Below, one piece after another: positions 15,833 through 62,569 of a DNA stretch of 64,000 bases. Positions within the stretch are counted from its first letter, which is position 1. The number at the start of each line of letters is the position of its first letter. This DNA is from Oligoflexia bacterium (GTDB taxonomy: Bacteria > Bdellovibrionota_G > JANQFH01), in NCBI GenBank assembly GCA_028277945.1, contig JANQFH010000056.1, positions 124,001-188,000 on the forward strand. The letters are read 5' to 3'. Under the pieces are notes generated by a model. It was not told the origin of the DNA and did not search any database. It saw only the letters and a program-made list of their open reading frames with translations. The position numbers and the translations under genes were made by a program.

Positions 15833-16981
15833 GTGTTTCCGCTATTGAACAAAGAACTTAACTTCTCTCTCTGCAGTGACACGGCTCAAACCGCGCGTCA
15901 ATTCTCGCAAGAGCAGCTGCTAACACAGGCCGTCCAGCTAAACCAAGAAGGTCAATTTCCCAGTGAAGTGCTGCAGCAGCTCGCTGCAAAGGGATTCTTC
16001 ACCCTCTGTCTACCACAGTCCTCTGGTGGACTCGGTTGTAGTTACCTTGAGTATGCCGAGGTGATGCGAGAGATCTCCTTGGCTTGTGCAAGCAGTGCCA
16101 TCACCTTGAGCGTGACTAACATGGTCGCACTGATCGTCGACAAACACGCAGCACCTAGCTTAGCCAAACCGATGCGGCAACGCTTTAGAGAACGGCAACC
16201 CTATCTCTTTGCCTTTGCCATCACCGAACCCGAAGCCGGTTCGGACGCACGGGCCATTAGCAGCAGCTATCACTCTAGCAAATCTGGCTTTGTCTTACGC
16301 GGCCACAAGTGCTTCATCACCTCGGGCAGCTACGCAGACGCGTTTGCCACTACTGCCCGCAGCGAAGCCGATCCAAAGAAGATCAGTTTCTTTTTAGTAC
16401 CGGGACAGAGCGCTGGTTTGCGTATTGGCAAGCCGGAAAAGAAACTCGGCTTGCGCGCTTCTAATACCGTGCAACTCTTTTATGAGGAGATCGAAATCCC
16501 CTCGGATCATCTGCTCGGCGAGGAAGGTGACGGCTTTAAAATCGCCATGACCGCTCTCAACGGTGGCCGCATTGGCGTGGCAGCCCAGGCGTTAGGCATA
16601 GGTTTGGCAGCCCTGCAGGCAGCGTCGGCGTGGACGCAAAAGTACAATAATACCCAAGGAAATCGGTGGCTTATATCTGAGATGGCAACGGTGTGTGAGG
16701 CGGGAATGCTGCTCATCGACCACGCGGCAAAGCTTGCCGATAAGGGTGTGCTTAACCCTGGGGTTGCCTCACAGGCAAAACTCTTCTGCAGTGAGCAGGC
16801 AAACAAAATGGTTGCCACAGCTATGCAGATTATGGGAAATGAGGCATATTATGGTAACTCGGCGGTACAAAGGCACTTTCGGGATTGCCGGGTTACCACG
16901 CTTTATGAAGGTACTTCAGAAATCCAACGTCTAGTGATAGCACGCAATCTCATCGCCCAAGGTTTGGCAGGATCACTATGA
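15833..16981 (+). CDS. Acyl-CoA dehydrogenase
   Basis: The 382-residue flavoprotein has all blocks of the short/branched-chain acyl-CoA dehydrogenase family: the [15 protein letters not shown]/substrate motif, [38 protein letters not shown], and the C-terminal [17 protein letters not shown], where the Glu is the catalytic base of most family members. It starts with GTG 9 nt after the cyclase gene, and its stop overlaps the mutase start as ATGA, so it is translated together with the mutase. The context suggests isobutyryl-CoA or butyryl-CoA as substrate; this is inference. Confidence 0.93.
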
Positions 16982-18645
16982 GTGTAGATAAATTGCGTCA
17001 AGCGTACAAAGCGTGGCAAGAGAAGACATTGAAGAACGCCTTGGAAAAGCAACCTGAGCGCTGTGAGACCTTCACAAACTTGAGCGGCCGTCCCATCGAG
17101 AGGCTGTACACGCCGCTCGATGTCGAACAGATGGATCCAGTTACGGATATTGGCACGCCGGGAGACTATCCTTACAGACGCGGCATCCATCCAACCATGT
17201 ACCGCAGCAAACTGTGGACGATGCGGCAGTTCTCTGGATTTGCCACCGCTGCGGAGACCAACAAACGGCTGCACTATCTACTCGAACATGGACAGACCGG
17301 GCTGAGTATCGCCTTTCATATGCCAACGCTCATGGGTTACGACTCCGATAACCCCAGGGCGAGAGGTGAAGTGGGTAAGTGTGGTGTTGCCATCGACAGT
17401 CTGCGCGACATGGAGACGCTGTTAAACGGCATTCCATTGGAGAAGGTTACCACTTCGATGACCACCAATGCGCCAGCATCGATTCTATTTTCCATGTATT
17501 TGGCGGTGGCTGAGAAACAGAAGGCATCGTGGAAAAAGATCAGTGGTACGATTCAGAACGACATTCTTAAAGAGTACATTGCGCAAAAGACTTGGATATA
17601 TCCTCCTAATCCCTCGCTGCGCCTCATCACCGACATCATTGAGTTTGCCACCAAAGAGGTGCCACGTTGGAACACCATTAGTATTAGCGGCTATCATATT
17701 CGCGAGGCTGGATCTACTGCCGTTCAAGAGTTAGCTTTTACACTGGCTGATGGCATCTGTTATGTCGAGCGTTGCCTTGAGCGGGGCATGGATATCGATG
17801 AATTTGCCCCGCGTCTGTCGTTCTTTTTCAATGCGCACAACGATTTCTTTGAAGAGATTGCCAAGTACCGTGCTGCCCGTAGCCTATGGGCAAAGATCGC
17901 ACGTGAACGCTTTAAAGCGAAAAATCCACGCAGTTGGAAGTTACGCTTTCATACGCAGACCGCGGGATGTTCGTTGACCGCGCAGCAACCCTACAACAAC
18001 GTCGTACGCGTTACTATTCAAGCGCTGGCGGGAGTTCTTGGTGGCACCCAATCCCTACACACCAACTCCTTAGATGAAACGCTGGCACTACCTACGCAGG
18101 AGGCGGTAACCATTGCCCTGCGCACGCAACAGATCATCGCTCATGAGAGCGGCGTTGCCGATACGGTCGATCCACTGGCAGGTTCCTACTTTTTAGAATC
18201 TCTGACCCACACTATGGAAAAGGAGGCCATGGCCTACATTGAGAAGATCGATGCCATGGGTGGCATGGTTGCCGCCATTGAAAACCAGTACCCGCAGAAA
18301 GAGATCGCCAATGCCGCCTACCAGTATCAAAAAGAGGTGGAAGCCAAGCGCAAGGTGATCGTGGGTGTTAACAAGTACGTTATGGAAGACGAAGAGCCTA
18401 TTGAGACCTTGGAGATTACCGAGGCCATGGAGAAGGCACAGATCGCCAACGTACAGCGTCTGCGCCAAGAGCGAGATCAGAGCAAGGTAGACATAGCCCG
18501 ACGCACACTCACGGAAAAGGCGGCCACCAAGGAAAACCTCCTGCCTTATATTCTTGACTGTGTGCGTACCTATTGCACCTTAGGAGAGATCGTCGACAGT
18601 ATGAAAGAGGTCTTTGGTGAGTATCGCGATCCAGGAGATTACTAA
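16978..18645 (+). CDS. B12-dependent acyl-CoA mutase large subunit, isobutyryl-CoA-mutase-like
   Basis: The 555-residue TIM-barrel catalytic subunit belongs to the methylmalonyl-CoA mutase superfamily and interconverts branched and linear acyl-CoAs with adenosylcobalamin. Landmarks are [49 protein letters not shown] with the conserved His240, and [15 protein letters not shown]-like end blocks. Two specificity positions differ from methylmalonyl-CoA mutase: the CoA-carboxylate-binding Tyr (Tyr89 in the Propionibacterium enzyme) is Phe85, and Arg207 is Gln203. Phe and Gln are what isobutyryl-CoA mutases carry. A normally conserved Asp after Phe113 is His114. The cobalamin domain is a separate protein encoded 6 bp downstream. 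Confidence 0.88.
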
Positions 18646-18651
18646 CCTACC

Positions 18652-19059
18652 ATGCCGGCAGTAAAAGCACGCATCTTACTCTCCAAAGCTGGTCTGGATG
18701 GTCATGACCGCGGTATTAAGATCATCGCCCGGGCGCTGCGGGACGCCGGCTATGAGATTATCTACACCGGGTTGCACCGTACCCCAGAGATGATCGTTGA
18801 AACTGCACTGCAAGAGGATGTCAACGCCATCGGCATCAGCGTGCTCTCGGGAGCGCATAACTTTCTCTTTGCCGAGATCATCCGTCTGCTCAAAGAGAAC
18901 AAGATGGAGGATGTCATCGTTTTCGGTGGCGGCATCATTCCTGAAGCCGATATTGCTGATTTGAAAAAGACAGGTGTAAGAGAGATATTCACACCCGGTG
19001 CATCTACTGAAGAGGTGCTGGAGTTTCTTGCCAAAGCACTGCCAGCACAACCTAGATGA
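18652..19059 (+). CDS. Cobalamin-binding small subunit of the acyl-CoA mutase
   Basis: This 135-residue protein is a stand-alone B12-binding Rossmann-like domain. It has the base-off/His-on signature DGHDRG (DxHxxG) near residue 17, the SVLSGAH loop and VFGGGIIPEAD, all expected for the adenosylcobalamin subunit of a mutase. Length matches the small subunit (IcmB) of two-protein isobutyryl-CoA mutases. It starts 6 bp after the large-subunit stop, so the two are made together. No MeaB-type G-protein chaperone is encoded nearby. Confidence 0.92.
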   Translation: MPAVKARILLSKAGLDGHDRGIKIIARALRDAGYEIIYTGLHRTPEMIVETALQEDVNAIGISVLSGAHNFLFAEIIRLLKENKMEDVIVFGGGIIPEADIADLKKTGVREIFTPGASTEEVLEFLAKALPAQPR

Positions 19060-55190: not shown

Positions 55191-56495
55191 TCAACAATCA
55201 GGTGGTAGCAGTGTCTTACGATCTAGAGGCGTCTTAAAAAGATGTCCTTGGCTACCGACGTTGCCGGCACCAAACAGCCATGGCAAACCTTCAGCGTCAA
55301 CAAAATACTCTAAATCCCGAATCTGCATACCTTCGCTGTTAAATTTATCTAAATTCAAGCGACATTTACTCTCTAGCCCGTCATCTACAACAGCTGCCAC
55401 TTCAAGCTGACTCGCAGCTGTCCAGTCTCCTGGTTGTACAGCGATGAAGAGATATTCGCCGATTGGTTGTACATCACTACAGGTAAACGCCTCTGCACCA
55501 ATGGCAAACTCGCCAAGTTCAGCTGGATGATCTGAATCATAATAGTAGACCCGACCACGGTCCCATTCTTTGCTACCAGGCTCGCCAGCTTTTTCACGAA
55601 CCTTCGGATCGGTGTCACAGAGGTAGAGACGCTCTTTTGACTCATCATAGGCTATCCGCTGCACCACACCCGAAAACTCCAGGGGTTGCGTAGCTAGATA
55701 ATCACGAAATTCTAGGTTTGAACCCTCAGCTGCTTCGAGTTTGTCACGATCGAAAATCAACAGATGACCGTGATCCCTCTGTCTCACCCCTGCAGTAAGG
55801 GCAATCTTATCTTCTCCCATGGGCTGTAACTCGCCGAGAAAGGCGTACTGTTTCTTTCCATCTATCTCTTTCACAATGTTGATCTTCATGGAGGCACGAA
55901 CCCTATCTTGCGTAAACAACACCAGTTTGCCAGGCTCTTCCACACTCGCCGTGTAATGGTCGTTGAATCTTGCATTGCTGAACGTTACTAGGCAGCCGGA
56001 ATCCAAGAGACAGAGATCCTGTGGGTAGAAGTCCTGCACACCACAGGCTGGGCGCTCTAAGTAGAGTTCTGATTCCTGCTTTTGCAGATGGCAGCGAATC
56101 ACCAAGGGAATTTTTAGACGCTCAGTCTCTTGGTCATCGGCGACATATCTCGCGATCAACACAAAAAGCTCTCCATCCGCAAGCGCCATCCGCCACGGAT
56201 TTGCCCAACCCTGTCCCACTAGATGTTGATGTAACGATAACGCGCCATCTTTCTTAAAATCCGGTAGTGCTATGAAATGCACACCCGGATTACCCTGCCA
56301 GGCCATACCATCATAGGCACCGCCATCTAAGACAACCATTTGCTCATCCTTGATAATTACTTGCTCTAAGTAGGATCCAACTGCGAGCGTTGCGGTTTTT
56401 CGTTCACTACCCTCCCAGGCAACAACCGTCTGGCTCAAACTAGGCAAGCTGACAAGGGCAGCAAAGAGACCAACGGGTTGTAAGATTGACTTCAT
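55191..56495 (-). CDS. Secreted protein of unknown function in a cobalamin-riboswitch operon
   Basis: The 434-residue protein has a signal peptide (LFAALVSLPSLSQTVVA) and a mature domain made of many short strands with repeated aromatic-turn-acidic units, suggesting a beta-propeller (for example MVVLDGG, FVLIARYV, LVTFSNARF, LLIFDRDKL, RLYLCDTD, YLFIAVQPGDW). No family recognised. Its ATG overlaps the stop of the anchored protein upstream by 4 bp, so both are expressed from the B12-controlled transcript. Cobalamin or cobalt handling outside the inner membrane is a hypothesis from the riboswitch only. Confidence 0.7.
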   Translation of the reverse strand: MKSILQPVGLFAALVSLPSLSQTVVAWEGSERKTATLAVGSYLEQVIIKDEQMVVLDGGAYDGMAWQGNPGVHFIALPDFKKDGALSLHQHLVGQGWANPWRMALADGELFVLIARYVADDQETERLKIPLVIRCHLQKQESELYLERPACGVQDFYPQDLCLLDSGCLVTFSNARFNDHYTASVEEPGKLVLFTQDRVRASMKINIVKEIDGKKQYAFLGELQPMGEDKIALTAGVRQRDHGHLLIFDRDKLEAAEGSNLEFRDYLATQPLEFSGVVQRIAYDESKERLYLCDTDPKVREKAGEPGSKEWDRGRVYYYDSDHPAELGEFAIGAEAFTCSDVQPIGEYLFIAVQPGDWTAASQLEVAAVVDDGLESKCRLNLDKFNSEGMQIRDLEYFVDAEGLPWLFGAGNVGSQGHLFKTPLDRKTLLPPDC

Positions 56496-57967
56496 TGTAG
56501 GTACTCCTCTGTGACATAGGCGTAGTGCATCTGCAGCGCATCTGGGTCTGCCCCTTCGGTATTGGCAACTGCATCTGGATCGCCGGCAAAGATGTCGACA
56601 AAGCAGACGCAGCCAACAGCGTCAAAACCTCGAGCTGCCATCTCGTTGCGCATCGGCCGAAGATCAAACTTGTCTCCTCCCTGCTCAGTTGGAATCACTC
56701 CGGCACAACCGCGAAAGTACTCTGCTTTGGTGGGAGCACAGGGAAACTGCACGTACTGACCTTGAACGTAGTCCTCACAGTTATCGGCAATCCGCACCGC
56801 CATGGGCTCGACAAAGTAACGGCCGGTTTTAAACATGCGAGCTCTAGTATCATCCTGTAAGAGGTTTGCTGCAGATCTTTCGGTTGTATCCATCTCGGCA
56901 TCCGACTTCTTGTCAATTTGGAAAACGTTCTCAAAGCCTACAAAATCAATGCCATTTTCATCGTAGATTTTGCCACCATCCCTTGGTTGAAAGCAGACCT
57001 CGCCACCATGACCCAAAGGGTGTGCTTTGTTTTTCAGCGCTGTACGTGCGTATGGAGAGTTTTCGCCCCAGCGATATCCAGGAGGAAAACGATAATCAGG
57101 AGGGCCGCTCAGTCTGAGCGCCAATCGCTCGGCTGAGATAGCTGGAAGGCTATTGTTACTGCGGTAACGACGACCAATGATATCCAAGCCTGGCCGGTTG
57201 TGCTCTACCGGCACGACGTGATCCCAAAGTCCTAGGGCGATCTTTTTTGGCTCGTCTGGTTTCTCTGCTTGTGGCTCCTGTGCTGCCGGACTGCCGGCTA
57301 TGGCTGCAGCCTCACTCTCTAGAAAGGCCTCCTCTTCCTCAGCAGTTACCTCCTCTACCTCACGATACCAATTACCATGGGGTTCAATCACACCTTCGGC
57401 AAGCAGGGTATCCAAGACGTGTTGTTTGAAGGTATCCAGCTCCTCGTCTTCTTCAGGCATATGCGATTTAAACTCTTCAATGACTTCACGCCGCCAACGG
57501 GGTACGTCATCTCTGTCTTTTGCATAGCCACGAGTTAGATAGCGTGGTTTGGGGTAGGTCACCACGAGCTCTTCGGGATAGTCAGGTTGGTTGTCGGAGG
57601 CTTTACGTTGCGATGGCAGAACCAGTAGCTCACCGGATTTTTTGCCAGCTGAAGATTTAACAGGACCGAGTGTCGCTTGGCCGGTTTTCTGCGCAAAACC
57701 CACTTCGACGATTTCCGCTGCTGTCGACTCCTCTATCTTTGCAGCCGTTGGTGCTGCTGTCTGAATCAACTCCTTTACTGGTTCTACCAACACGGGTTGT
57801 TCCGATGTAAAGAGCTTTTGATAACCGCGTTCAAGCACTCTGACCAACCAAGCAAGCTTGTCGGCTGAACGTGGTACACTCGAACCACCTAAAAGCGGCA
57901 GCAGTGCCAAGGCAAGCAAGACAAATACTGAGAGAAAAATTAAGCGGCGGAAATCTGGTGAGAACAT
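56492..57967 (-). CDS. Membrane-anchored protein of unknown function, first gene after the cobalamin riboswitch
   Basis: The 491-residue protein has one N-terminal transmembrane helix (LIFLSVFVLLALALLPLLGG), a Glu/Ala/Pro-rich linker to about residue 235, and a C-terminal domain with several Cys (GEVCFQPRDGG, NCEDY, FPCAPTKAEYFRGCAG, VGCVCF). The anchor plus long linker recalls periplasm-spanning proteins such as TonB, but no TonB C-terminal motif is seen. ATG 57967 has AAGGAGG 6 nt upstream. A short TTGCC/GGCAA stem next to this ribosome binding site could let the riboswitch control translation. Confidence 0.7.
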   Translation of the reverse strand: MFSPDFRRLIFLSVFVLLALALLPLLGGSSVPRSADKLAWLVRVLERGYQKLFTSEQPVLVEPVKELIQTAAPTAAKIEESTAAEIVEVGFAQKTGQATLGPVKSSAGKKSGELLVLPSQRKASDNQPDYPEELVVTYPKPRYLTRGYAKDRDDVPRWRREVIEEFKSHMPEEDEELDTFKQHVLDTLLAEGVIEPHGNWYREVEEVTAEEEEAFLESEAAAIAGSPAAQEPQAEKPDEPKKIALGLWDHVVPVEHNRPGLDIIGRRYRSNNSLPAISAERLALRLSGPPDYRFPPGYRWGENSPYARTALKNKAHPLGHGGEVCFQPRDGGKIYDENGIDFVGFENVFQIDKKSDAEMDTTERSAANLLQDDTRARMFKTGRYFVEPMAVRIADNCEDYVQGQYVQFPCAPTKAEYFRGCAGVIPTEQGGDKFDLRPMRNEMAARGFDAVGCVCFVDIFAGDPDAVANTEGADPDALQMHYAYVTEEYLQ

Positions 57968-58014
57968 GCGGCCCTCCTTGCCCGAACCACGAGGCAATAT
58001 AAGTGGAGGCAAGT

Positions 58015-58212
58015 TACCGACCGGTCTCCTGGCTTATACCTCAAACGTCCTTGTAGCCGCCTTCCCAGAGGCTATCCAGTGGCAACATGGCTCAAGGACT
58101 TGGTAATCACAGTGACGGGATCGCTGTGGGATTACACCACATTCCCGACATCGGCAGTTGCTATGGCAAAGCTAGCACAGTGGCTTTAGCCGTCAAATGT
58201 TTCCCTATACCA
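58015..58212 (-). promoter_or_regulatory. Cobalamin riboswitch
   Basis: Read on the minus strand, the leader has the order of conserved blocks of the adenosylcobalamin/cobalamin riboswitch: GGGAATGTGGTGTAATCCCA (from 58146), CCCGTCACTGTGA, the B12 box GCCACTGG with TCTGGGAAGGCG (58058-58083), and the closing AAGCCAGGAGACCGGTC (58021-58035 region). It lies about 50 nt before the ATG at 57967 and points at the two orphan genes. Binding should reduce their expression when B12 is plentiful. Ends are approximate. Confidence 0.93.
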
Positions 58213-58278: not shown

Positions 58279-59427
58279 ATGAAAACACCCGCACTCCCAA
58301 GATACCTGCAGGGACCTGTTCATGAGGATCTGCAGGCAAAGATGGTCTTCGTTGGCGGGCCACGTCAGGTGGGGAAAACTACCTTTGCTCTGAGCTTCTT
58401 GGACAAACCCCACCTCAATCATCCTGCCTATTTGAACTGGGATGTTCCACAAGTGCGTCCGGCCCTCTTGAAAGGGGAGCTACCGCCAAATCAACCGCTT
58501 GTCGTTTTCGATGAAATTCATAAGTTTGCGCGCTGGCGCAATCTTGTGAAGGGTTTCTATGATCGTTATCACTCCTCTACATCGTTTCTCGTTACAGGAT
58601 CGGCCCGGCTTGACTATTACCGACGAGGCGGTGATTCTCTGCAGGGACGCTACCACTATCATCGACTACATCCCTTTTCGTTGGCCGAGATAGAGAAAAC
58701 CGCTTCACCTAAAGACGTCGATCATCTACTGCGTTTTGGCGGTTTTCCAGAACCTTGTCTTCGCGGCAGAGAGAAACATTGGCGACGCTGGCAGAGGGAA
58801 CGATTACAACGAGTGATCTACGATGATATCCGTGACCTGGAAAACCTGCGAGAGGTTAGCTTGATGGAACTCCTTCTAGAAGAGCTGCCGCATCGGGTGG
58901 GTTCGCCGCTCTCGGTCAAAAACCTCAAAGAAACCCTGCAGGTAGCTCATGATACTGTAGAACGTTGGCTCGCGATTCTTGAGCGCATGTATGTCTGCTT
59001 TCGTATTCCTCCCTATGGCGCTCGACGCATTCGGGCAGTCAAAAAGGAACAAAAACTCTATTTTTGGGACTGGTCGCAATGTCCTGATGATGGCCGTCGC
59101 TTTGAAAATCTGCTCGCTTGCCAGTTGCTCAAGTACTGTCATTTTTTGCAGGACACCGAAGGATATAAAATGGAGCTACGCTTTGTGCGAGACACGGACA
59201 AACGTGAAGTCGATTTTGTTGTGTTGCAAGAAGATAAACCCACTTTTGCTGTAGAGTGTAAAACAGGAGAAAGAGAGATTTCACAAGCAGCGCGTTACTT
59301 TCGTGCAAGAACGCCGATCAAACGTTTTTTTCAGGTGCACCTTGGACGGAAGGATTTTGGTGATGCTGATGTCGATGTACGGGTGTTACCCTTTACCCGG
59401 TTTTGCAAAGAACTGCGCCTACCATAA
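58279..59427 (+). CDS. AAA+ ATPase with DUF4143 domain
   Basis: The 382-residue protein has Walker A FVGGPRQVGKTTFA, Walker B PLVVFDEIHK, the FLVTGSARLDYYRRGGDSLQGR segment broken after Ser-Ala-Arg, and LHPFSLAEIE, then a winged-helix/DUF4143 region (SVKNLKETLQVAHDTVERWL) and a PD-(D/E)XK-like C-terminal end (REVDFVV...FAVECKTGE). These stand-alone ATPases are widespread, often variable between strains; their role is unsettled. No Shine-Dalgarno; the promoter lies 10 nt upstream. Confidence 0.88.
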   Translation: MKTPALPRYLQGPVHEDLQAKMVFVGGPRQVGKTTFALSFLDKPHLNHPAYLNWDVPQVRPALLKGELPPNQPLVVFDEIHKFARWRNLVKGFYDRYHSSTSFLVTGSARLDYYRRGGDSLQGRYHYHRLHPFSLAEIEKTASPKDVDHLLRFGGFPEPCLRGREKHWRRWQRERLQRVIYDDIRDLENLREVSLMELLLEELPHRVGSPLSVKNLKETLQVAHDTVERWLAILERMYVCFRIPPYGARRIRAVKKEQKLYFWDWSQCPDDGRRFENLLACQLLKYCHFLQDTEGYKMELRFVRDTDKREVDFVVLQEDKPTFAVECKTGEREISQAARYFRARTPIKRFFQVHLGRKDFGDADVDVRVLPFTRFCKELRLP

Positions 59428-59456: not shown

Positions 59457-60560
59457 TTATGGAGATTTCGGCAGTAGAAGATAGAGGATGCCGCTCGCCT
59501 TCATATGGCCGGCCTGCTCACCGGCAAAGGCGCCGGCGCCCCAGTAGAGATCAACGTGATCGCCACGCACACCACCGCCTGTGTCCTGACTGACCACAAA
59601 CAGGGAGAGTGGTTTCGTTGGATCCAGGGGCTTGCTCGTACTGAGGTAAGCGAGCAGTCCGAGTGGGATTCTTGTGGTGTCGACGGCAATCGTACGCATG
59701 GGCGTAATGGCTAAGCCAGAGGCTCCCTCGACATAGTCCTTGAACTTAAAAAAGATATAGCGCGGCATGCGTGCTGCATAACGGCGAAATCGTTTTGGGT
59801 TTGCTGTAAAGTAGCTGTCGATCGTTTGCATGCTCATACCTTGTTTCTGCAACACGCCATCAGCAATCAACAGCTTACCCAGCGAGACATAGTCATGGCC
59901 ATTGTCACCCGCATAACCGACGATGGCTGAACTACCATCGGGCCAGATCAGCCTGCCACTGCCCTGAACCTGGAGAAAAAAGCGTTCGATGTCATTCTCC
60001 AGCCAAGCAAGCGGTTTGGCTTTACCACGGAGCACGCCACGATAGTCAATCTCTTCGCGAGTGTGGTATCGTCTACCCGGTTTTTTATCCTCTGGTACCG
60101 GGTAAATTGGGTGGCGAAAACGCGGAGAGGGCTCGCGTGCCGCTCGGTACTCCGGGAGGAAATAACCCGTTACTAAAATCTGTCCGTTCTTCTTGGTTCC
60201 ACGATAGCGATAAACCATAAAGTGGCGCCAAAGCCACTGTGACAGCTCGCTCTTAGAAGGTTGTGTCTGCAAAAATCTCACTAACTCCCGATAGTGGGAT
60301 GCCAACGAACGCACTGTGACTTGCCGACCCGCAACATCCACGACAGCATGTGGATCGCGTTGCAGCTGCCGCTCGAGATGATCCCACTGTTTTATCAGCA
60401 TCTTCTGCAATGACGCCATGTCGGCATCGTCCACAAAGTCACGGCTGGAGCGCCCATCTTGTCGTAATAGCGTCTCCTCTGTAGGGAGACGTTTTTGGCA
60501 AGCAATGAGTAACACCGCGCCAAAGAGCAAACTGACTGTAAGACAAGCGTAGCGAATCAT
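59457..60560 (-). CDS. mltA: Membrane-bound lytic murein transglycosylase A
   Basis: MltA cleaves peptidoglycan glycan strands to 1,6-anhydro ends at the outer membrane. The 367-residue lipoprotein has a signal peptide with LLFGAVLLIAC. The MltA domain includes LVTGYFLPEY, YPVPEDK, YHTREEIDYRG, LAWLENDIERFFLQVQGSG, and the 3D domain has VVSQDTGGGVRGDHVDLYWG with the catalytic Asp. Its ATG overlaps the PilZ-Hsp70 stop by 4 bp (ATGA), so the two are translated together. Confidence 0.94.
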   Translation of the reverse strand: MIRYACLTVSLLFGAVLLIACQKRLPTEETLLRQDGRSSRDFVDDADMASLQKMLIKQWDHLERQLQRDPHAVVDVAGRQVTVRSLASHYRELVRFLQTQPSKSELSQWLWRHFMVYRYRGTKKNGQILVTGYFLPEYRAAREPSPRFRHPIYPVPEDKKPGRRYHTREEIDYRGVLRGKAKPLAWLENDIERFFLQVQGSGRLIWPDGSSAIVGYAGDNGHDYVSLGKLLIADGVLQKQGMSMQTIDSYFTANPKRFRRYAARMPRYIFFKFKDYVEGASGLAITPMRTIAVDTTRIPLGLLAYLSTSKPLDPTKPLSLFVVSQDTGGGVRGDHVDLYWGAGAFAGEQAGHMKASGILYLLLPKSP

Positions 60561-62569
60561 TTAAAAAACTTTTTAAAAAACCCCTGACGCTCGGCCACGG
60601 GTTTGGAGATCTCCGGAGTGATGAGGGGGTGTGCCATGATTTCTACCTTGAGGATCTCGGTCTTGCCGCTAGGCTGGTGGCAAGCACGCAGTTTTAAAAT
60701 GCCCTCTTTGGTTAATTCAAACTCAATAATAATGTCGCTAAGGCCGTCTCCTAAAGTAGGAAATAGAAGTTTGACCGTACCCAGGTACTCATTCTCATCC
60801 ACCCGATCGTGGTTTCCCTGGTAGAGTGCGAGCTCTCGTGTCTGCGTAGCAAAGGGCAGCTCGTTGAGATCAAAACGCTTACGGCATGGCAATGGTGAGT
60901 ACCTGGCAAAGATCTCCTTAAAACCACCATCGGCCATGGCCATGCCTATGGGCAACGTCAGCACGTCTAACAGCAGCGGCCCATCGATACTCTGCATCGA
61001 TCCACCTAGCAATGCCGCCCCCAGCGCAACCGCCTCGTCGGGGTGCACACCCTTGCTTGGATTCTGCTTGAAGTACTCCTGAATCCTCTCTTGTAGATAG
61101 GGCATACGAGTTTGGCCACCAACCAACAAGACATCATCGATATTGCTCGGCAGTAAACCCATAGAGTGGACAACCTGCCCGCAAATCTCCAACGCCTTCT
61201 CTACCAGATCTTTGGTGAGGTCGTTGAGTTGCTGACGTTGGATAGTCATCTGTAAGTCAATCGGCTTACCCTTCTTCTCGACAAGATAAGGAAGCATTAT
61301 CTCTGCCTCTTCTTGAAACGACAGTTGTATCTTGGCATTTTCTGCGGCATTGGTGATGCGTTGTAGGACAACATGATTATCTTGTATGGAGACGCTATGT
61401 TTTTTTTCAAACTGTTCCGTAACGTAATCAATAAGACGTTGATCAAAATCAATACCTCCCAGGAGAGTATCCCCTCCCGTTGCTTTAACCTCGAAAACGT
61501 TCGCAGATACCTCTAAGATGGAAACATCAAAAGTGCCGCCACCAAGATCGAAGACGAGGATGCGCCGGTCATACTCCTTTTGGTAGCCGTAAGCGAGAGC
61601 AGCGGCAGTCGGTTCGTTCAGCAGCAGGTCTACATGCAGTCCTGCAAGCTGGGCTGCCTGTTTCACGGCAGCTCGTTGACTCTCAGTAAAGTAGGCGGGA
61701 ATGGTGATGATCGCCCGCTTAATGGTCGCGCCAAGCAAGCCCTCAGCGCTTTCGCGTAGCTGTGTAATAATAAAAGAACAGACCTCTGGTAGCGTGTACT
61801 CCTTACCAGCCAGAGTAACGATGACCTCATCGTTTTCATTTGCTTTCAACGGGTAGGAGAAATGCGATGCCATCTCACGCACAAACGGAGAGCGGAAGTT
61901 CCTACCAGCAAAACGTTTGACCCCGAAAATCGTATTCTGTGGATTGATGACCGCCTGCTCTTTTGCTGCCAGACCTATCAACATTTTGCCCTGTTCATTG
62001 ATGGCTACAACCGAGGGAATAATCAAACTACCCTTGTCACTGGGCACAAGTTTTGGATGGTCCCCATCCATAAACGCAACGCAGCTATTGGTCGTACCAA
62101 AATCGATGCCAACAATAGGGCCCTGCATTTCATCGACTGAAGGTTGCGGTATTTGCTTGGCCGCGGTCGCTTCCAACTGCATATCGAGATCGAGCTCCGA
62201 GCCGATACCGGCCTCACGGTTTTTGCGGGCAACGTTCCAAACGAACTTGCGACTCGCAGGGGAGAGGCGCACAAAACGAAAGGCCATCCCTGTCGGTTCC
62301 TGCGGTTTGTGGGAGCGACGGGTCCAAAGCACCTCGCCTTCGGCCTCGATAACGACCTCCCCAGACTGCAGGCTAATCTGTAAGGCCAACACCGTCCCAG
62401 CCGATCTCGGGGTCTCCGTCGGTATAAAGAGACCTTCTTCGTAGATATGACGCCCCAGCCGATTCATCAATGCTTCCAGGCTGGGAAACTTGAGCTTGAG
62501 CCGTCCCGCTACGGGCAGAACTGGGGTGGAGGCCGTTGCTTCAGAGCCATCTTTTTTGGGTGGAGCCAT
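60557..62569 (-). CDS. PilZ-Hsp70 fusion (DnaK-like chaperone with N-terminal PilZ)
   Basis: The 670-residue protein has an N-terminal PilZ-like domain (residues 18-125: LKLKFPSLEALMNR, EGLFIPTE, GMAFRFVRLSP), then an Hsp70 ATPase with VGIDFGTTNSCVA, IITIPAYFTESQRAAVKQA, NEPTAAALAYGY, VFDLGGGTFDVSILE and DVLLVGGQTRMPYLQ. The substrate-binding part is short, about 130 residues, with an unusual LPIGMAMADGG. The usual RxxxR and D/NxSxxG c-di-GMP motifs are not obvious in the PilZ part, so it may bind protein rather than c-di-GMP. Similar fusions are known in myxobacteria. First gene before mltA. Confidence 0.9.
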   Translation of the reverse strand: MAPPKKDGSEATASTPVLPVAGRLKLKFPSLEALMNRLGRHIYEEGLFIPTETPRSAGTVLALQISLQSGEVVIEAEGEVLWTRRSHKPQEPTGMAFRFVRLSPASRKFVWNVARKNREAGIGSELDLDMQLEATAAKQIPQPSVDEMQGPIVGIDFGTTNSCVAFMDGDHPKLVPSDKGSLIIPSVVAINEQGKMLIGLAAKEQAVINPQNTIFGVKRFAGRNFRSPFVREMASHFSYPLKANENDEVIVTLAGKEYTLPEVCSFIITQLRESAEGLLGATIKRAIITIPAYFTESQRAAVKQAAQLAGLHVDLLLNEPTAAALAYGYQKEYDRRILVFDLGGGTFDVSILEVSANVFEVKATGGDTLLGGIDFDQRLIDYVTEQFEKKHSVSIQDNHVVLQRITNAAENAKIQLSFQEEAEIMLPYLVEKKGKPIDLQMTIQRQQLNDLTKDLVEKALEICGQVVHSMGLLPSNIDDVLLVGGQTRMPYLQERIQEYFKQNPSKGVHPDEAVALGAALLGGSMQSIDGPLLLDVLTLPIGMAMADGGFKEIFARYSPLPCRKRFDLNELPFATQTRELALYQGNHDRVDENEYLGTVKLLFPTLGDGLSDIIIEFELTKEGILKLRACHQPSGKTEILKVEIMAHPLITPEISKPVAERQGFFKKFFK

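Follow-up and report, generated by a model that had tools for sequence, protein, structure and literature searches.

In the window (the whole 64,000-nucleotide stretch of DNA analysed here), a cobalamin riboswitch precedes a two-gene operon, and the first of the two encoded proteins (protein 1) is best read, from sequence comparison, as a membrane-anchored BtuH-like cobamide binder produced under B12 scarcity. We consider it quite likely that the operon as a whole is a cobamide-capture module turned on when intracellular B12 is low.

The riboswitch and the operon behind it

Searching with the RF00174 covariance model returned a match that spans model positions 1-189, that is, the entire aptamer, and that far exceeds the gathering score of 31.5 (Table 1); it is the only RF00174 match in the 2.86 Mb genome, which is 95.6% complete. 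The cobalamin riboswitch that a sequence-only reading of this DNA had placed upstream of the operon is thus confirmed, the match being neither weak nor absent. The open reading frame of gene 1 as listed (56492-58012) begins with a TTG at 58012 that falls within the aptamer; since an ATG at 57967 lies 5 nt beyond an AAGGAGG at 57979-57973, the shorter protein that starts there is likelier than the TTG-start product. Genes 1 and 2 overlap in an ATGA (56495-56492), as the same reading had noted in proposing a coupled two-gene operon, and gene 2 is translationally coupled to gene 1 through this overlap. Because no terminator-like site was found between the aptamer and the ATG of gene 1, we infer that the riboswitch would control the operon at the level of translation. 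The divergent gene adjoining the riboswitch (58279-59427) encodes an AAA_14/DUF4143 ATPase with no B12 link that we could see, and window positions 60557-62569 encode an Hsp70/DnaK-like protein whose N-terminal extension looks PilZ-like by eye.

Table 1. Features of the riboswitch-controlled operon (window positions)
Feature	Position	Strand	Details
Cobalamin riboswitch aptamer (RF00174)	58002-58169	-	cmscan 83.4 bits, E 4.6e-19
Shine-Dalgarno AAGGAGG, gene 1	57973-57979	-	immediately 3' of aptamer; from sequence
Gene 1	56492-57967	-	491 aa from likely ATG; N-terminal membrane anchor, acidic/Pro linker, predicted BtuH-like C-domain
FEN (BtuH-like) domain of protein 1	56495-57250	-	motifs LGHGGEV, DFVGFENVF, FRGCAGVIP, QGGDKFDL
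Gene 2	55191-56495	-	434 aa, exported, beta-rich, probable very divergent propeller

Protein 1 opens with a hydrophobic anchor and continues through a linker of ~235 aa that is rich in Asp/Glu (45) and Pro (19), and all six of its Cys, the first being residue 325, sit in the C-domain, an architecture that had been described correctly before. No lipobox Cys or lipoprotein signal was seen in the protein.

A domain family behind cobalamin riboswitches

Neither protein matched any Pfam family above threshold (a DUF4465 match to protein 1 was also absent), and neither, used singly as a query, matched any PDB sequence. Against NCBIfam, protein 1 gave one faint match, to the LIC_13355 lipoprotein family NF033170 (E 0.035), at 13.3 bits against a curated cut-off of 120 bits; the two share the FEN motif region described below, and they differ in that the family annotation is not B12-related. 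Relatives gathered via this family comprised 12 weak loci among 143 genomes, whose common domain carries the motifs LGxGGxI, DGPGxDFxVFENxF, GGDxFDL and FDLDAV; we label it the FEN domain, a name coined here after the invariant FEN motif. A FEN profile built without the window protein scored protein 1 at 42.1 bits (hmmsearch; maximum of 1000 shuffles, 4.6), hhalign of protein 1 against FEN gave a probability of 98.5, and the best phmmer match of protein 1 among 9245 related-locus ORFs was the FEN protein of L018, a locus of the same phylum (E 1.7e-5). With a profile match as well as the LGxGG, FENxF and GGDxFDL motifs by which we recognise the FEN (LIC_13355-like) family, the C-domain is assigned to that family, and protein 1 is judged to be no orphan. 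The window domain is 27-36% identical to the other 12 aligned sequences and has inserts, which marks it as a highly divergent member by sequence.

The 12 initial loci had been picked by domain alone, ignoring riboswitch presence, and an RF00174 match lies upstream on the same strand within ~7.5 kb at every one of them (12/12). Scanning named genomes with the FEN alignment produced 79 loci; the genomes of 50 were searched for RF00174, and coordinates place a same-strand riboswitch upstream in 40 of these 50. Ten loci were scanned directly; the scan confirmed the coordinate placement in four (L061, L062, L070 and L097), put the L093 riboswitch after the FEN gene, and refuted the riboswitches that coordinates had suggested at L084 and L095, both of which are left out of the counts. 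By a rough estimate, from one to five riboswitches per several-Mb genome, chance would produce such linkage at ~0.1% per locus. Riboswitch-linked BtuH-like domains occur in Myxococcota, KSB1, Calditrichota, Fermentibacteria, Kapaibacteria, Ignavibacteria and others.

Across 87 distinct FEN loci, a YncE/BtuG-like propeller is encoded on the same strand within 5 kb at 63 (fused to FEN in 11) and a TonB receptor within 6 kb at 46, both counts being lower bounds since many contigs end early. The propeller of one fusion matched YncE-family chains of the PDB, BtuG1 among them (E ~1e-8), and some FEN relatives bear surface-sorting tails. Time and again, then, homologues of protein 1 follow a cobalamin riboswitch and have TonB receptors and BtuG-like propellers as neighbours, which is the opposite of a family never linked to such switches and known for some other function.

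Within the phylum, two of four other genomes (G001 and G002) have a riboswitch above cut-off. In both, the genes behind the switch encode a small lipoprotein and a FEN protein laid out like protein 1, with an anchor and a long linker. At L110:3612-4157 and L018:15038-15619, a small lipoprotein partners the FEN protein, where the window operon has its propeller-like protein. DUF4430 was considered for the lipoprotein of G001 and set aside as a mere hint below the Pfam threshold (E 0.033); we take DUF4430 to be a relative of the transcobalamin C-terminal domain.

Relation to the B12 binder BtuH

In a Foldseek search of the PDB, an AlphaFold2 model of the FEN domain of protein 1 (pTM 0.64) had as its best match 8blw_B, a chain of the BtuB1-BtuG1 complex (E 0.058, probability 0.72), and BtuH2 (7biz) came at ranks 11 and 22; none of these matches is significant taken singly, and weak CBM32 matches were also returned. 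BtuG1 itself combines a propeller and a BtuH-like domain in one fused protein (PMC10404256). We then consider the family as a whole: a FEN profile of 62 sequences, from which BtuH was excluded, was searched against 177,635 PDB sequences and ranked 8blw_B BtuG1 first (E 0.0064, over residues 428-498 of the BtuH-like domain) and 7biz BtuH2 second (E 0.24). In the reverse direction, a profile of two BtuH segments placed FEN ORFs at 19 of the top 20 ranks, against a background in which FEN is present in only 98 of 9245 ORFs.

Three B12 contacts are reported for BtuH2: Asn399 with the phosphate, Gln333 with the ribose and Phe401 with the lower ligand (PMC8941943). A single chain offset accommodates Q333, N399 and F401 and, on this inferred numbering, places NAF 399-401 opposite FENxF. 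The FEN Asn aligned with Asn399 is invariant (62/62, including the window), and the Phe aligned with Phe401 is kept in 54/62, the window sequence being FENVF. Taken together, the searches place the FEN family as a distant, indeed remote, relative of the B12-binding BtuH domain (E 0.0064 and 0.24), a homology that holds at the level of the family, the window protein by itself giving only the Foldseek match at E 0.058. The earlier view that neither protein matches a recognised B12 family does not survive for protein 1, whose FEN domain is by these comparisons BtuH-like.

Protein 1 thus resembles BtuH and the H-domain of BtuG1 of Bacteroides thetaiotaomicron (PMC8941943, PMC10404256) distantly in sequence and in its model, in riboswitch control, which it shares with BtuH, and in the alignment of its invariant Asn with the phosphate-contacting Asn399. 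It differs in being strongly diverged, in having no detected PKD/Ig domains, and in having a membrane anchor where BtuH has a lipoprotein signal; its cobamide binding is a prediction. Another class of exported B12 binders, the beta-jelly-roll BtuJ/DUF4465 proteins, is riboswitch-controlled in B. thetaiotaomicron (PMC12751083, PMC13398666), and protein 1 is unlike these in giving no Pfam DUF4465 match.

Protein 2, cofactor import and a proposed mechanism

The genome encodes a permease with BtuC as its best NCBIfam match, together with an ATPase, and no binding-protein gene adjoins them; a Peripla_BP_2 protein is encoded elsewhere (G000:C68:157848). Methylmalonyl-CoA mutase, a B12-dependent enzyme that would consume captured cofactor, is encoded in the window by a large subunit (16978-18642) and a separate B12-binding small subunit (18671-19017). 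A corrinoid-binding protein resembling CarH/MtgC (L126:3463-4242, contig C35 of the same genome) is a possible further B12 user. No TonB plug or barrel domain was detected in the genome, of which a few per cent is missing and in which a divergent receptor could escape detection, and accordingly no btuB was found beside the gene of protein 2. The lack of a detectable TonB receptor weighs against the capture reading, which needs a route for B12 over the outer membrane.

With no lipobox Cys in protein 1 and no TonB receptor detected in the genome, the protein may be periplasmic, and the cell-surface location first proposed for the pair can no longer be taken as given. Protein 1 might then be an inner-membrane-tethered cobamide store, or a BtuF-like feeder of the BtuC-like importer, rather than an extracellular capture protein, and its anchor and long linker, as well as the absence of a binding-protein gene next to those of the permease and ATPase, would suit such a role. 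We nevertheless regard this as rather unlikely, because the genome has its separate Peripla_BP_2 protein, and because FEN relatives elsewhere adjoin outer-membrane receptors and in some cases carry the surface-sorting tails.

Protein 2 begins with a hydrophobic signal, in keeping with the secretion claimed for it, whereas the propeller-like fold claimed at the same time has so far gathered weak signs. Homologues were found neither across 58 genomes nor by a pattern search of genome contigs. A full-length propeller profile gave 3.6 bits, the best shuffle being in the 2.8 range, and was not significant; a single-blade profile gave 6.4 bits, above all of 2000 shuffles (maximum 5.1). Ranked by this profile among 1063 natural proteins, a set that may include unrecognised propellers, protein 2 comes only ninth. 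The alignment-free AlphaFold2 model was of very low confidence and unusable (pLDDT 34.6, pTM 0.28), and Foldseek matches to it, none significant and the model being untrustworthy, were nearly all propellers (thiocyanate dehydrogenase, prolyl oligopeptidases, DPP-IV and WD40). An internal-repeat test was not significant but uninformative, the repeat signal being weak in several divergent control propellers too.

These missing profile and repeat signals, and the low pLDDT, would fit an unrelated beta-rich exported protein that merely shares the operon and is neither a propeller nor a B12 binder. Such a protein seems doubtful in view of the blade profile, which beats every shuffle albeit at rank 9, of the propellers that dominate the Foldseek matches of the unbiased model, and of the propellers usual at FEN loci. 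On balance, we think it fairly probable that protein 2 is a propeller, and the same weak evidence suggests that it is probably a very divergent BtuG-like partner of protein 1. Like the surface propeller BtuG (PMC6143338, PMC10404256), it shares a cobalamin-riboswitch operon with a BtuH-like protein, and it shows weak propeller signs; unlike BtuG, it lacks a lipobox and an adjoining BtuB, and it gave no significant sequence match. Of the capture pair envisaged from the sequence, then, protein 1 is well supported by riboswitch linkage, by its neighbours and by its BtuH-like domain, and a propeller fold for protein 2 is plausible.

We propose that, at low B12, the empty aptamer would leave the ribosome-binding site free, such that both proteins would be synthesised. 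Protein 1 would be held to a membrane by its N-terminal anchor, its long flexible linker extending the BtuH-like domain to bind cobamides, with the Asn and Phe conserved in FENxF predicted to contact the phosphate and the lower-ligand side, respectively. Protein 2, most likely a divergent propeller, would act as the BtuG-like partner that helps or completes capture, and the BtuC-like importer encoded elsewhere would take the cargo in and so supply methylmalonyl-CoA mutase. As B12 rises, the B12-bound aptamer would mask the ribosome-binding site, neither gene would be translated, and the switch would shut.

That the two proteins are instead a surface adhesin or carbohydrate-binding pair, B12-regulated and nothing more, is very unlikely, given that the weak CBM32 matches of the protein 1 model and the published laminin and plasminogen binding of a refolded family relative, Leptospira LIC_13355 (PMC11891782), are opposed by the riboswitch linkage (12/12 and 40/50 loci), by the TonB receptor and propeller neighbours of FEN loci, and by the BtuH homology of the family.

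Published work confines BtuG to Bacteroidetes (PMC6143338) and has surveyed btuH homologues among gut members of that phylum (PMC8941943). In the open-licence papers that we searched, we did not find the FEN family described as a B12 binder outside Bacteroidetes, and an earlier mention is possible. BtuH/BtuG-type capture probably extends beyond Bacteroidetes, to judge from the distribution of FEN domains, which gives an unannotated family a hypothetical function and suggests that bacteria in general compete for B12 with dedicated capture proteins. More tentatively still, an old, phylum-spanning mode of high-affinity B12 capture of the BtuH/BtuG type may lie under 'LIC_13355-like' domains, taking here a TonB-receptor-free form in which a tethered BtuH-like domain and a propeller would feed a BtuC-like importer. 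The NCBIfam model through which the B12-linked FEN family was reached is defined by the Leptospira lipoprotein LIC_13355, which has hitherto been studied as a host-matrix binder, for its binding of laminin and plasminogen (PMC11891782); B12 binding is a candidate alternative role for it.
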